The notes beneath the pieces are model-generated. The model did not search any database. It was not told where the DNA came from and saw nothing but the letters and a program-made list of their open reading frames with translations. A stretch of DNA of 64,000 bases, taken from Commensalibacter melissae (lineage in GTDB: Bacteria > Pseudomonadota > Alphaproteobacteria > Acetobacterales > Acetobacteraceae). The stretch is taken from the NCBI RefSeq assembly GCF_003691365.1, contig NZ_CP033087.1, positions 1,564,501 through 1,628,500 of the forward strand, given 5' to 3'. Of the stretch, positions 45,288-48,330 are shown one piece after another; within the stretch, counting starts at the first letter, position 1, and each line of letters opens with the position of its first letter. The translations under genes were made by a program, and so were the position numbers.

Positions 45288-45678
45288 ATCAGATAGCCAG
45301 ATGATCGCTATTTACATGATCTGCATCGTAAATAGAGGAAAGTCCGGGCTCCACGGAAAAACGGTGCCAGTTAACGACTGGCGAGGGTGACCTTAGGGAA
45401 AGTGCCGCAGAAAACAAACCGCTTGCCAATTTATTTATAAATGCAAGTAAGGGTGAAAAGGCGTGGTAAAAGCACACCGCATGACTGGCAACAGGAATGG
45501 CATGGTAAACCCCACCGGGAGCAAAACCTAATAGAGGTAACAGATTTACAGTTAAATCAGGGTTTTTCCGCCCTGTTACCTGGGTTGGTTGCATGAAATA
45601 CGGTGCGAATCGTATTCAAGATGAATGATCGTCATTTATGTTTCATAAAAACAGAACCCGGCTTACACGCTATCTGAT
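45288..45678 (+). ncRNA. rnpB: RNase P RNA (type A)
   Basis: The catalytic RNA of tRNA 5' processing. The conserved CR-I block GAGGAAAGTCCGGGCTCCAC and the CR-V block ACAGAACCCGGCTTAC are both present about 310 nt apart, and the ends ATCAGATAGC and GCTATCTGAT form the P1 helix exactly. Ends are set from that helix. Internal P7-P12 regions look normal. Confidence 0.96.
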
Positions 45679-45807
45679 TTTAATTTTATCCATAAATTTC
45701 CATTAAGATGCAAAACTATAATTTTTACGGCATTTTAACGATACTTCATATACATCTCAATCATGATTTTATGAAATAAAAGTGATTTCCAACGTAATTA
45801 TTTGACC

Positions 45808-45832
45808 TCCCATATTTACCCATGATATCCCA
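45808..45832 (-). promoter_or_regulatory. three MraZ-type TGGGN boxes
   Basis: Read on the minus strand the site is TGGGA-TATCA-TGGGT-AAATA-TGGGA, three TGGGN pentamers with exact 5-bp spacers (10-bp period). MraZ in E. coli binds TGGGN repeats with this spacing upstream of its own gene. The site ends 67 bp before mraZ. Confidence 0.82.
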
Positions 45833-45843
45833 AAGGCTATAAT
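45815..45843 (+). promoter_or_regulatory. probable sigma70-type promoter of mraZ/dcw cluster
   Basis: TTTACC at 45815 and a consensus TATAAT at 45838 are separated by 17 bp. The -35 element and spacer are covered by MraZ boxes two and three, so bound MraZ would block polymerase. Start of transcription would be near 45850. Confidence 0.65.
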
Positions 45844-45899
45844 GTAAAACAAAAGCAAAGATCAATAATCAATTCAAATTAAATCTGGGATAGCCTGTA

Positions 45900-46382
45900 A
45901 TGAATTTGTTCCTTGGATCACATCAAAATCGACTGGATGCCAAAGGAAGAGTATCTATTCCAGCAAATTTCCGTTTAAATTTACGCAAAGAAAAAACCAC
46001 CAAGGAAGAACTTTCCTTTATTCTTCGCCCCTCTCATACTTTACCCTGTATCGAAGGATGGCCATTTGCCATTTTCAACAAACTGACCGCCGTATTGGAT
46101 GATGTCAACATTCTTTCAACGGAACATAATGACCTCGCAACCCTTATTTACGCTCAGGCCTGGCCTATTGAAGTTGATCGTGAGGGAAGGATTATCCTTC
46201 CTGATATTCTAAAACAACATGCCAACTTGACCAATAAGGTTACTTTTATGGGACTTGGGACAATTTTCCAAATTTGGGAACCTGTAGCCGCACAAAAACA
46301 TTATGAATCCGTGCTTAAACGAACAAAAATGGTCATTCTGCCACACGCCGCCAAGGCTAAAACTGAGCAAGCGGACCAATAA
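45900..46382 (+). CDS. mraZ: transcriptional regulator MraZ
   Basis: 160 residues with two SpoVT/AbrB-like halves, each with the DNA-binding signature: NRLDAKGRVSIPANFR at the start and EVDREGRIILPDILK near residues 95-110. MraZ forms a ring that represses the dcw operon by binding TGGGN repeats; three such repeats lie upstream here. No strong ribosome binding site is visible (GGGATAGCCTGTA). rsmH follows after two bases. Confidence 0.95.
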   Translation: MNLFLGSHQNRLDAKGRVSIPANFRLNLRKEKTTKEELSFILRPSHTLPCIEGWPFAIFNKLTAVLDDVNILSTEHNDLATLIYAQAWPIEVDREGRIILPDILKQHANLTNKVTFMGLGTIFQIWEPVAAQKHYESVLKRTKMVILPHAAKAKTEQADQ

Positions 46383-46384
46383 TC

Positions 46385-47362
46385 ATGGCCGACAATTATT
46401 CAGCAATTGATATCAATGGTCATTTCCCCGTCATGCTTAACGAAGTAATTGACCTTTTACAACCAAAATCCGAAGCGGTTTATATTGATGCAACCTTTGG
46501 TGGAGGTGGGTACAGCAAGGCCATTCTTTCCGCTGCCAATTGCAATGTATGGGGGATTGATCGTGATCCCGATGCCATCAGGCGAGGACAAAAAATTGTT
46601 GACGACTATCCCACGCTTCGTCTTTTACAGGGAAATTTTGCTCAACTTGAAACGCTTGCTCATGAAAATAACATCCAATCTTTGGATGGTATTGTTCTTG
46701 ATCTGGGAGTTTCCTCTTTTCAGTTGGACGAGGCAGAAAGAGGTTTTTCATTCCGGTTTGATGGACCGCTGGATATGAGAATGAGTAAATCTGGAAAAAC
46801 TGCGGCTGATCTCGTTAACCAGTTGTCCGAAACCGAATTGGCAGATATTTTATGGTATTATGGTGAGGAACGTTTCTCACGTCGTATCGCTCGAGCCATT
46901 ATTCAGGATAGACTTGAAAAACCTTTTGAAACAACACAACAACTGGCAAACCTGATTAAAAGGGTTGTTCCGTCCAAAAAAAATGAAATTAATCCCGCAA
47001 CTCGATCTTTTCAGGCGCTAAGAATTGCCGTCAATGATGAATTGACACAAATCAGGCAAGTCTTAACAAGTGCACTTTCCCTTCTTAAACCAGATGGAAA
47101 ACTGATTGTTGTCTCATTTCATTCCCTGGAAGACCGTATTGTCAAAGAAATCATGAATCAGGCAACTGGCAATATTGCAGGTCCTTCAAGACATCATCCT
47201 CAATCCCTACATCAAAAATCCGAACTGATTAAGTTTGAAGCCCTAACCCATAAGCCTCTTCGCCCTTCAAAACATGAAGCCCTTTTAAATCCCCGTTCAC
47301 GAAGTGCGAAATTACGTGCCATTAAACGTCTTGCAGGGCAGAAAACAAGGAGTATATCCTGA
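46385..47362 (+). CDS. rsmH: 16S rRNA (cytosine-1402 N4) methyltransferase
   Basis: 325 residues. It methylates C1402 of 16S rRNA at N4 in the decoding site. Signature blocks are HFPVMLNEVIDLL, DATFGGGGYSKAIL (SAM site), LDLGVSSFQLDEAERGFSFR and PDGKLIVVSFHSLEDRIVK. It is the usual second gene of dcw clusters (mraW). Its TGA overlaps the ftsL ATG by one base. Confidence 0.96.
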   Translation: MADNYSAIDINGHFPVMLNEVIDLLQPKSEAVYIDATFGGGGYSKAILSAANCNVWGIDRDPDAIRRGQKIVDDYPTLRLLQGNFAQLETLAHENNIQSLDGIVLDLGVSSFQLDEAERGFSFRFDGPLDMRMSKSGKTAADLVNQLSETELADILWYYGEERFSRRIARAIIQDRLEKPFETTQQLANLIKRVVPSKKNEINPATRSFQALRIAVNDELTQIRQVLTSALSLLKPDGKLIVVSFHSLEDRIVKEIMNQATGNIAGPSRHHPQSLHQKSELIKFEALTHKPLRPSKHEALLNPRSRSAKLRAIKRLAGQKTRSIS

Positions 47363-48330
47363 TGATAATCCGTCCATTAACGTTATTTTGCTCAGTACTT
47401 GCCGGCCTATCTGGAATGATCCTGTACACTCAAAAACATAAAACCACCGTACTGGATCATCAAATCGCCAAGATTGTGCATGATACGGAACGGCTAAAAG
47501 CCCGGACGGCAATGTTACGGACAGAATGGACTTTACTTAATCAGCCTGACCGTTTAAAAACTCTGGCCAACAACTTTCTGCCAAAATTGCACCCTTTGGC
47601 TCCCACTCAATTTGTACAAATGTCATCCTTGCTCAATGTGCTTCCTCCCATTCAAAAGGAACAGATCGAGGATAAAACACGCAAACAGCTGCTCCTTGCG
47701 GTCGCTGATAATCATGGACAAACCTTGAATAACCCTGATGACAAGCCCGAACCTGCTATTGTTTCAAGTAATACGACCAGACAACATCATGACTCCCCAA
47801 CAAAACCGAGCACTTCGGATGAAGAAAACCAATCTGCATCCTTCAATTCCCCTTCCAGAAAACCCGAAATCTACACTGCTAAAAAAACGAACAATACAAT
47901 TGATTCCTCTGATGATATTTTAAATAAAAACATAAAAAAACCTCCTATCAGAACCAAACCTGTTCAAAATGTTAGGGATGATGAAGAAAATCTAGCAACC
48001 AAAGATTTCCCTGATATCCCACGAATTGATAAAAAAAATATCAAAACAACAGCCTTAATCAAAAAATCTGCTCATAAACCTGCAGTTCGACCTGCATTTT
48101 CAATTGCTGACAGTTCTGAGCCGATGTCAATTGTAAAAGAAAAGAATAACAATGGCACCATTGGTAAAAAGGAAATACACACCGTCGTAATAACCAGTAC
48201 AAAACCAAAACATGCGACGCCGGTAAAAATCGCCCAAAACAGCAAACAAAAACAGCATTATCATTCTGAATCAGCCTTTGGAGACGACGCTGATGATTCC
48301 CTACCCGCACCTGTTCCTTTTTCTCAATGA
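47362..48330 (+). CDS. ftsL: FtsL-like cell division protein with long C-terminal extension
   Basis: 322 residues, far above the 90-150 usual for FtsL. Only the first ~90 residues look like FtsL: a very short cytoplasmic start, a membrane helix (LTLFCSVLAGLSGMILYT), a coiled coil (LDHQIAKIVHDTERLKARTA, MLRTEWTLLNQPDRLKTLAN). From about residue 110 the sequence is a polar, disordered tail rich in Lys, Asn, Ser, Thr and Pro. Position between rsmH and ftsI supports the name. FtsL joins FtsQ and FtsB to activate FtsW/FtsI. The tail would lie in the periplasm. Confidence 0.8.
   Translation: MIIRPLTLFCSVLAGLSGMILYTQKHKTTVLDHQIAKIVHDTERLKARTAMLRTEWTLLNQPDRLKTLANNFLPKLHPLAPTQFVQMSSLLNVLPPIQKEQIEDKTRKQLLLAVADNHGQTLNNPDDKPEPAIVSSNTTRQHHDSPTKPSTSDEENQSASFNSPSRKPEIYTAKKTNNTIDSSDDILNKNIKKPPIRTKPVQNVRDDEENLATKDFPDIPRIDKKNIKTTALIKKSAHKPAVRPAFSIADSSEPMSIVKEKNNNGTIGKKEIHTVVITSTKPKHATPVKIAQNSKQKQHYHSESAFGDDADDSLPAPVPFSQ

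Follow-up and report, generated by a model that had tools for sequence, protein, structure and literature searches.

Few bacterial regulators are as widespread as MraZ, yet, to our knowledge, how it acts has been examined in a small number of species. The start of the dcw cluster in Commensalibacter melissae, an acetic acid bacterium, raises the question of whether a set of short repeats before mraZ is an operator for MraZ, which promoter such an operator would control, and how far the arrangement extends beyond this locus. We addressed this question in a stretch of 64,000 nucleotides (contig NZ_CP033087.1, positions 1,564,501 to 1,628,500; hereafter the window, in whose numbering all coordinates are given) and by comparison with the upstream regions of mraZ in other genomes.

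Three TGGG boxes precede mraZ and the dcw cluster

The first gene of the cluster is mraZ (45900–46382, plus strand; 160 aa; Pfam PF02381), whose product is the presumed binder of the boxes and scored 173.8 bits against NCBIfam NF001477 (cut-off 162). The protein has two MraZ domains (two PF02381 stretches), and D13, R17, D93, and R97 of its D-x-x-x-R loops are invariant in alignments. Its predicted fold (mean pLDDT 88.2) matches solved MraZ; the 16 structure matches at E 0.001 or better were all mycoplasma MraZ entries, including 9r4j and 9sz7. The domains, the loops, and the modeled fold are those of an MraZ family member. The second gene is rsmH (mraW; 46385–47362, plus strand). Next in the same orientation come ftsL, an ftsI-type transpeptidase gene, murE, murF, mraY, murD, ftsW, and murG and then, beyond three further reading frames, ftsA. 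The FtsL frame (47362–48330) encodes 322 aa, of which the FtsL model covers residues 4–87, with a long tail beyond. Directly upstream of the dcw promoter is the gene for RNase P RNA (class A; 45289–45681).

Three TGGG boxes at an exact 10-bp period are present on the minus strand, in CCCATATTTACCCATGATATCCCA at 45809–45832, and read on the plus strand as CCCA at 45809–45812 (box 1), 45819–45822 (box 2), and 45829–45832 (box 3). When the N of the TGGGN pentamer is included, the block covers 45808–45832, the same extent as in the original prediction, and the array ends 67 bp before the mraZ start. The exact triple occurred once in the 64-kb window, whereas 100 shuffled versions gave 0.01 on average, so the sequence and the shuffle test confirm the three minus-strand pentamers that had been predicted. 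Across the whole genome (2,023,834 bases) this was the single match, and the reversed pattern gave 0. Allowing up to one mismatch, there were 10 places versus 2 for the reversed pattern; therefore, only the exact triple stands out. A wider MraZ regulon was considered and rejected on these numbers, the exact triple being single and the nine other one-mismatch places standing against two for the reversed pattern. A lone TGGG on the coding strand (45886–45889, 14 bases 5′ of the mraZ start) was taken as a ribosome-binding sequence and left out of the box counts; TGGGATA is also seen shortly before the start in a related Commensalibacter (L032).

A perfect triple is the norm in Acetobacteraceae

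We compiled three sets of loci. An MraZ match was found in 183 of 200 family genomes, and the family set combined 62 of these 183 genomes (30 + 32 loci), 75 of 77 mostly named loci, 27 further loci, and two more genomes; a Gemmataceae locus (L106) and a Clostridium locus (L108) were left out, and several members of the set are MAGs titled just Proteobacteria or Rhodospirillales. These 166 loci gave 132 upstream regions once near-identical rows were removed. The class set comprised 110 loci from other families (95 of the 96 nonfamily matches, with G291, at a contig start, left out, plus 15) of what we take, from Acetobacteraceae locus titles and general taxonomy, to be the Alphaproteobacteria, a class that includes acetic acid bacteria, rhizobia, and Caulobacter. 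The third set, other Pseudomonadota, held 53 loci including E. coli K-12, with 24 coming from a single family.

Within 300 bp before mraZ, the exact CCCA triple was present in 108 of the 132 family loci (shuffles 0.05), which is a count of loci and not of evolutionary events, as near relatives are not independent. At up to one mismatch, the triple was found in 117 of 132 (shuffles 0.45) and was missing from the 300 bases in the remaining 15; this is the comparison of orthologous regions that had been suggested as a check, and it found the lattice before mraZ throughout most of the family. A TGGG triple on the coding strand was found in 0 of 132 loci. Among the 94 family loci that could be anchored on a TTGAC adjoining box 1, boxes 1, 2, and 3 were exact in 91, 93, and 93, respectively, and 49 even have an exact fourth box, which the window does not have. 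The perfect triple is therefore the family norm and ordinary at this locus, and the unusual clarity attributed to it in the original prediction was not upheld. With several TGGG boxes at a 10-bp period, directly before mraZ and the dcw cluster and kept among orthologues, the identification of the array as a putative MraZ operator is well supported.

The promoter is most likely interleaved with the boxes

We then had two candidates for the promoter that the boxes overlap. The one named in the original prediction is TTTACC-N17-TATAAT (45815–45843, plus strand); if it were the promoter, transcription would start near 45850, the boxes would cover its −35 and spacer, and MraZ would repress. The motif pair really is in the window and scores 10/12 against the E. 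coli consensus, and both hexamers occupy the same positions in L032. However, such sites are expected by chance in an AT-rich stretch: a scan with an E. coli-type consensus returned 2 promoter-like sites in 45550–46000 versus a shuffle mean of 2.2, and TATAAT occurs 76 times in the 64-kb window versus a chance mean of 71.3. Nor is the pair kept within the genus. Of 12 Commensalibacter rows (where a genome retrieved twice, a few bases apart, counts as two), 6 have TATAAT no more than 10 bases past the point where box 3 begins, corresponding to 3 of 8 distinct sequences and two offsets; the other 5 sequences have no TATAAT near box 3, and in one of the 3 it is shifted by one base. Being unconserved among close relatives and expected by chance, TTTACC-N17-TATAAT was rejected as the main start and is at most a lineage-specific extra promoter. 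Against it also stands a second promoter, conserved in the family and intact in the window, and we regard transcription from TTTACC-N17-TATAAT as unlikely. The promoter named in the original prediction was thus probably wrong, while the make-up of the boxes, their place, and their overlap with a candidate dcw promoter stood.

The family keeps TTGAC-N17/18-TAT with a preceding TG. In the window, the −35 is most likely TTGACC (45802–45807, plus strand), and the −10 is most likely TATCCC (45826–45831, plus strand), which follows TTGACC after 18 bases and overlaps box 3. Between boxes 2 and 3, TGATAT (45823–45828, plus strand) would combine the TG of an extended −10 with the first three −10 bases, and transcription would start near 45838. 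A TTGAC adjoining box 1 was present in 94 of the 132 loci of the family and 60 of the 110 of the class. Using it as the sole anchor, we found TGnTAT in the gap between boxes 2 and 3 in 82 of the 94 family and 56 of the 60 class loci, compared with 0 to 3 loci for gaps 1 and 3. Where both motifs were present, the distance from TTGAC to TAT peaked at 24 (57 loci) and 23 (25 loci) in the family and at 23 (44 loci) and 24 (17 loci) in the class, with the next commonest distance found in 3 loci; these distances mean a hexamer spacing of 18 or 17 bases. The combined pattern TTGAC-N15/16-TGnTAT was present in 83 of 132 family and 61 of 110 class loci and in 0 of the 53 loci from other Pseudomonadota.

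TTGACC-N18-TATCCC has the features by which we recognized an alphaproteobacterial sigma-70 promoter, i.e., a TTG −35, a TAT −10, a spacing of 16–19 bp, and conservation in relatives. Judged as an E. coli promoter element, TATCCC is a poor −10, and the consensus scan did not pick it. According to the available text of PMC8407463, most alphaproteobacterial promoters analyzed have no T at −7, a lack for which CarD is proposed to make up; the C at −7 of TATCCC fits these promoters. Promoters of Gluconobacter oxydans are described, in the part of PMC5756330 available, with a lax −10 (nAtnnn) and −35 (ttGnnn). The window shares with the promoters of both papers a TTG-type −35 and a −10 that begins TAT or nAt and whose last base is not fixed; it differs in having an operator embedded in the core promoter, which the available parts of these papers describe for none of their promoters. 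The C. melissae genome has two CarD-domain frames, of 195 and 1162 aa, which we took as CarD and Mfd, respectively, from their length and domain, and CarD would help the polymerase at this −10. A possible reason why the odd TATCCC is kept is that it is under promoter and box constraints at once.

MraZ would repress by keeping polymerase off the promoter

We propose, with a probability of roughly 75%, that the sigma-70 promoter of the dcw cluster and an MraZ operator form one merged site, at which MraZ represses by keeping polymerase off. ATGGG-like boxes, read on the template strand, repeat with a 10-base period, and the promoter elements would fall in the gaps: TTGAC immediately upstream of box 1 and TGnTAT in the gap that separates boxes 2 and 3, with the last three bases of the −10 supplied by box 3. 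An MraZ ring on the boxes and RNA polymerase would occupy the same ∼30 bases, so MraZ, by excluding polymerase, would most likely repress mraZ together with the genes downstream. The original prediction of autorepression would therefore follow naturally from boxes overlapping the dcw promoter. As judged from the sequence, MraZ should bind these boxes and TATCCC should serve as the −10; the whole cluster is presumably one transcript; and the effect of MraZ would be repression by analogy with E. coli and M. genitalium, where the accessible text of PMC8475190 reports that it represses.

The same site could also serve activation of the cluster by MraZ, a role that the available part of PMC7761207 cites for mycoplasmas. 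However, an MraZ ring bound to boxes within the −35 to −10 stretch should exclude polymerase, and this, together with the repression reported for E. coli and M. genitalium, makes activation quite improbable. Repression by MraZ need not be the only control, as other regulators may act at the mraZ upstream region too: in other alphaproteobacteria, CtrA sites before mraZ (excerpts of PMC4414408) and CenR at mraZ upstream regions (excerpts of PMC9275681) have been reported.

The putative operator has opposite polarity in Alphaproteobacteria

Outside the family, the exact CCCA triple was found in 68 of the 110 class loci, and at up to one mismatch in 90 (shuffles 0.2), leaving 20 with no such triple within 300 bases; a one-mismatch TGGG triple on the coding strand was found in 2. 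Other Pseudomonadota have the coding-strand TGGG triple instead, in 9 of 53 loci exactly and in 33 of 53 at up to one mismatch. The flanking base differs as well. Among exact boxes, TGGG is preceded by A in 288 of 339 boxes in the family and 208 of 248 in the class, versus G in 69 of 75 in other Pseudomonadota. In the two loci from other phyla, L106 and L108, the repeats (TGGG or GTGG) are likewise on the coding strand. One-mismatch CCCA triples were also seen 196–300 bases before mraZ in 5 of the 53 other Pseudomonadota loci, where they are perhaps the site of another gene; one of the five (L193) also has a TGGG triple closer to mraZ. Among the class loci with an array, 19 of 77 lacked TGnTAT, TTGA, or both (a genome fetched twice with a few-base shift counting twice). 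Three class loci (L196, L210, and L236) have five boxes, at up to one mismatch per triple, and no TGnTAT.

Eraso et al. reportedly described the E. coli MraZ boxes at Pmra in 2014. In our set, the E. coli K-12 boxes are coding-strand TGGG located 43 to 20 bases before mraZ. E. coli resembles the window in having three TGGG boxes with a 10-bp period before mraZ, which in E. coli are read as the site of dcw autorepression in the available text of PMC8475190 and PMC7761207. Transcription in E. coli starts 38 bases before mraZ, and its boxes lie downstream of the −10, across the start site (both from the accessible part of PMC7761207), whereas those of the window run from beside the −35 into the −10, with TGGG on the template strand. 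The window therefore does not have an operator of the E. coli type, i.e., coding-strand TGGG downstream of the −10. The claim that it extends the E. coli rule failed on three points: the boxes are reversed in strand, they cover the −35 to −10 stretch, and their flanking base differs. The arrangement in the class is, to judge from sequence organization, an inverted, promoter-fused variant and not the E. coli rule repeated.

Burkholderia cenocepacia PmraBc, in the available account of PMC7761207, is similar in having 10-base repeats before mraZ and a gel shift with purified MraZ; it differs in that its four repeats are downstream of the −10 and overlap a mapped start. In Mollicutes, too, mraZ is preceded by several boxes at regular intervals, to which an MraZ assembly binds, and the fold of their protein matches that of the window MraZ. 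The box letters are different, with AAAGTG[T/G] repeats (PMC8475190, in the part available), and the role is disputed between repressor and activator. By their titles, 9r4j holds M. genitalium MraZ with its promoter and 9sz7 holds it with a 4 box promoter. For the alphaproteobacterial arrangement, we found no earlier description in the open-access papers of PubMed Central, most subscription papers being outside the scope of the search.

The module goes with mraZ, and a genome without detected mraZ keeps the promoter pattern

We defined a strict module, CCCAN6CCCATGnTAnCCCA, and found it in 41 of 114 class genomes, at 42 places in total, with 0 for the reversed control. All 42 places are on the same strand as an mraZ match and 73–267 bases before it. 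In the class sample, the module was present in 41 of 98 genomes with mraZ versus 0 of 16 without (Fisher p 0.0005; duplicate retrievals of a genome, offset by a few bases, are each included in these counts). It was found in 0 of 29 genomes with no detected mraZ, where absence rests on searches, some of the genomes are drafts, and 3 of 20 tested also lack rsmH. The strict module thus goes with the presence of mraZ; the exception, in a looser form, is G311.

For the loci without mraZ, the 700 bases before rsmH were read in 15; a cut locus (L362) and the split gene of G256 (L363 and L364) were left out. The promoter pattern was kept in 2 of the 15 (G066 and G311; shuffles 0.012), and the other 13 had neither the triple nor the promoter pattern. 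In G311, a 0.8-Mb genome, the promoter and three boxes are kept and box 3 is lost. G066, a member of the family, has the RNase P RNA gene (rnpB), then TTGACG-N17-TATGGC with the TG and no box, and then rsmH. No trace of mraZ was found in G066 by tblastn. Since BLAST of this region against the family upstream regions gave no alignment, its orthology rests on its place between rnpB and rsmH and on the pattern. G066 separates the promoter letters from the box letters, although two cases are few.

We were concerned that TTGAC and TGnTAT might be parts of what MraZ recognizes, with the promoter elsewhere, because each sits at a constant position within the lattice of boxes and the start near 45838 is a prediction. 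Several observations argue against this: TGnTAT is confined to one gap, the spacing of 17 or 18 bases is that of sigma-70 promoters, some loci have boxes without TTGAC or TGnTAT, and G066 keeps elements of this type with neither mraZ nor boxes. We consider this the least probable of the alternatives, and very improbable in itself.

It is rather probable, if less so than the merged operator and promoter at the C. melissae locus, that the class as a whole has an operator inverted relative to the direction of transcription and fused into the core promoter, that MraZ and CarD-assisted polymerase compete for it, and that loss of MraZ can leave the promoter with its boxes erased. The interest lies in this class-wide variant and not in the single locus. 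An operator of this kind common to the class would give a direct, testable prediction for the transcription of division and wall genes, and would mean that operators of the same regulator can be oriented in opposite ways in sister classes.

G066 (L353) and G314 (L357), two Acetobacteraceae genomes that are 100% and 99% complete, have rsmH and no detected mraZ, and therefore mraZ can be lost in this family. In another genome without mraZ, G013 (L350), RNase P RNA also precedes rsmH.
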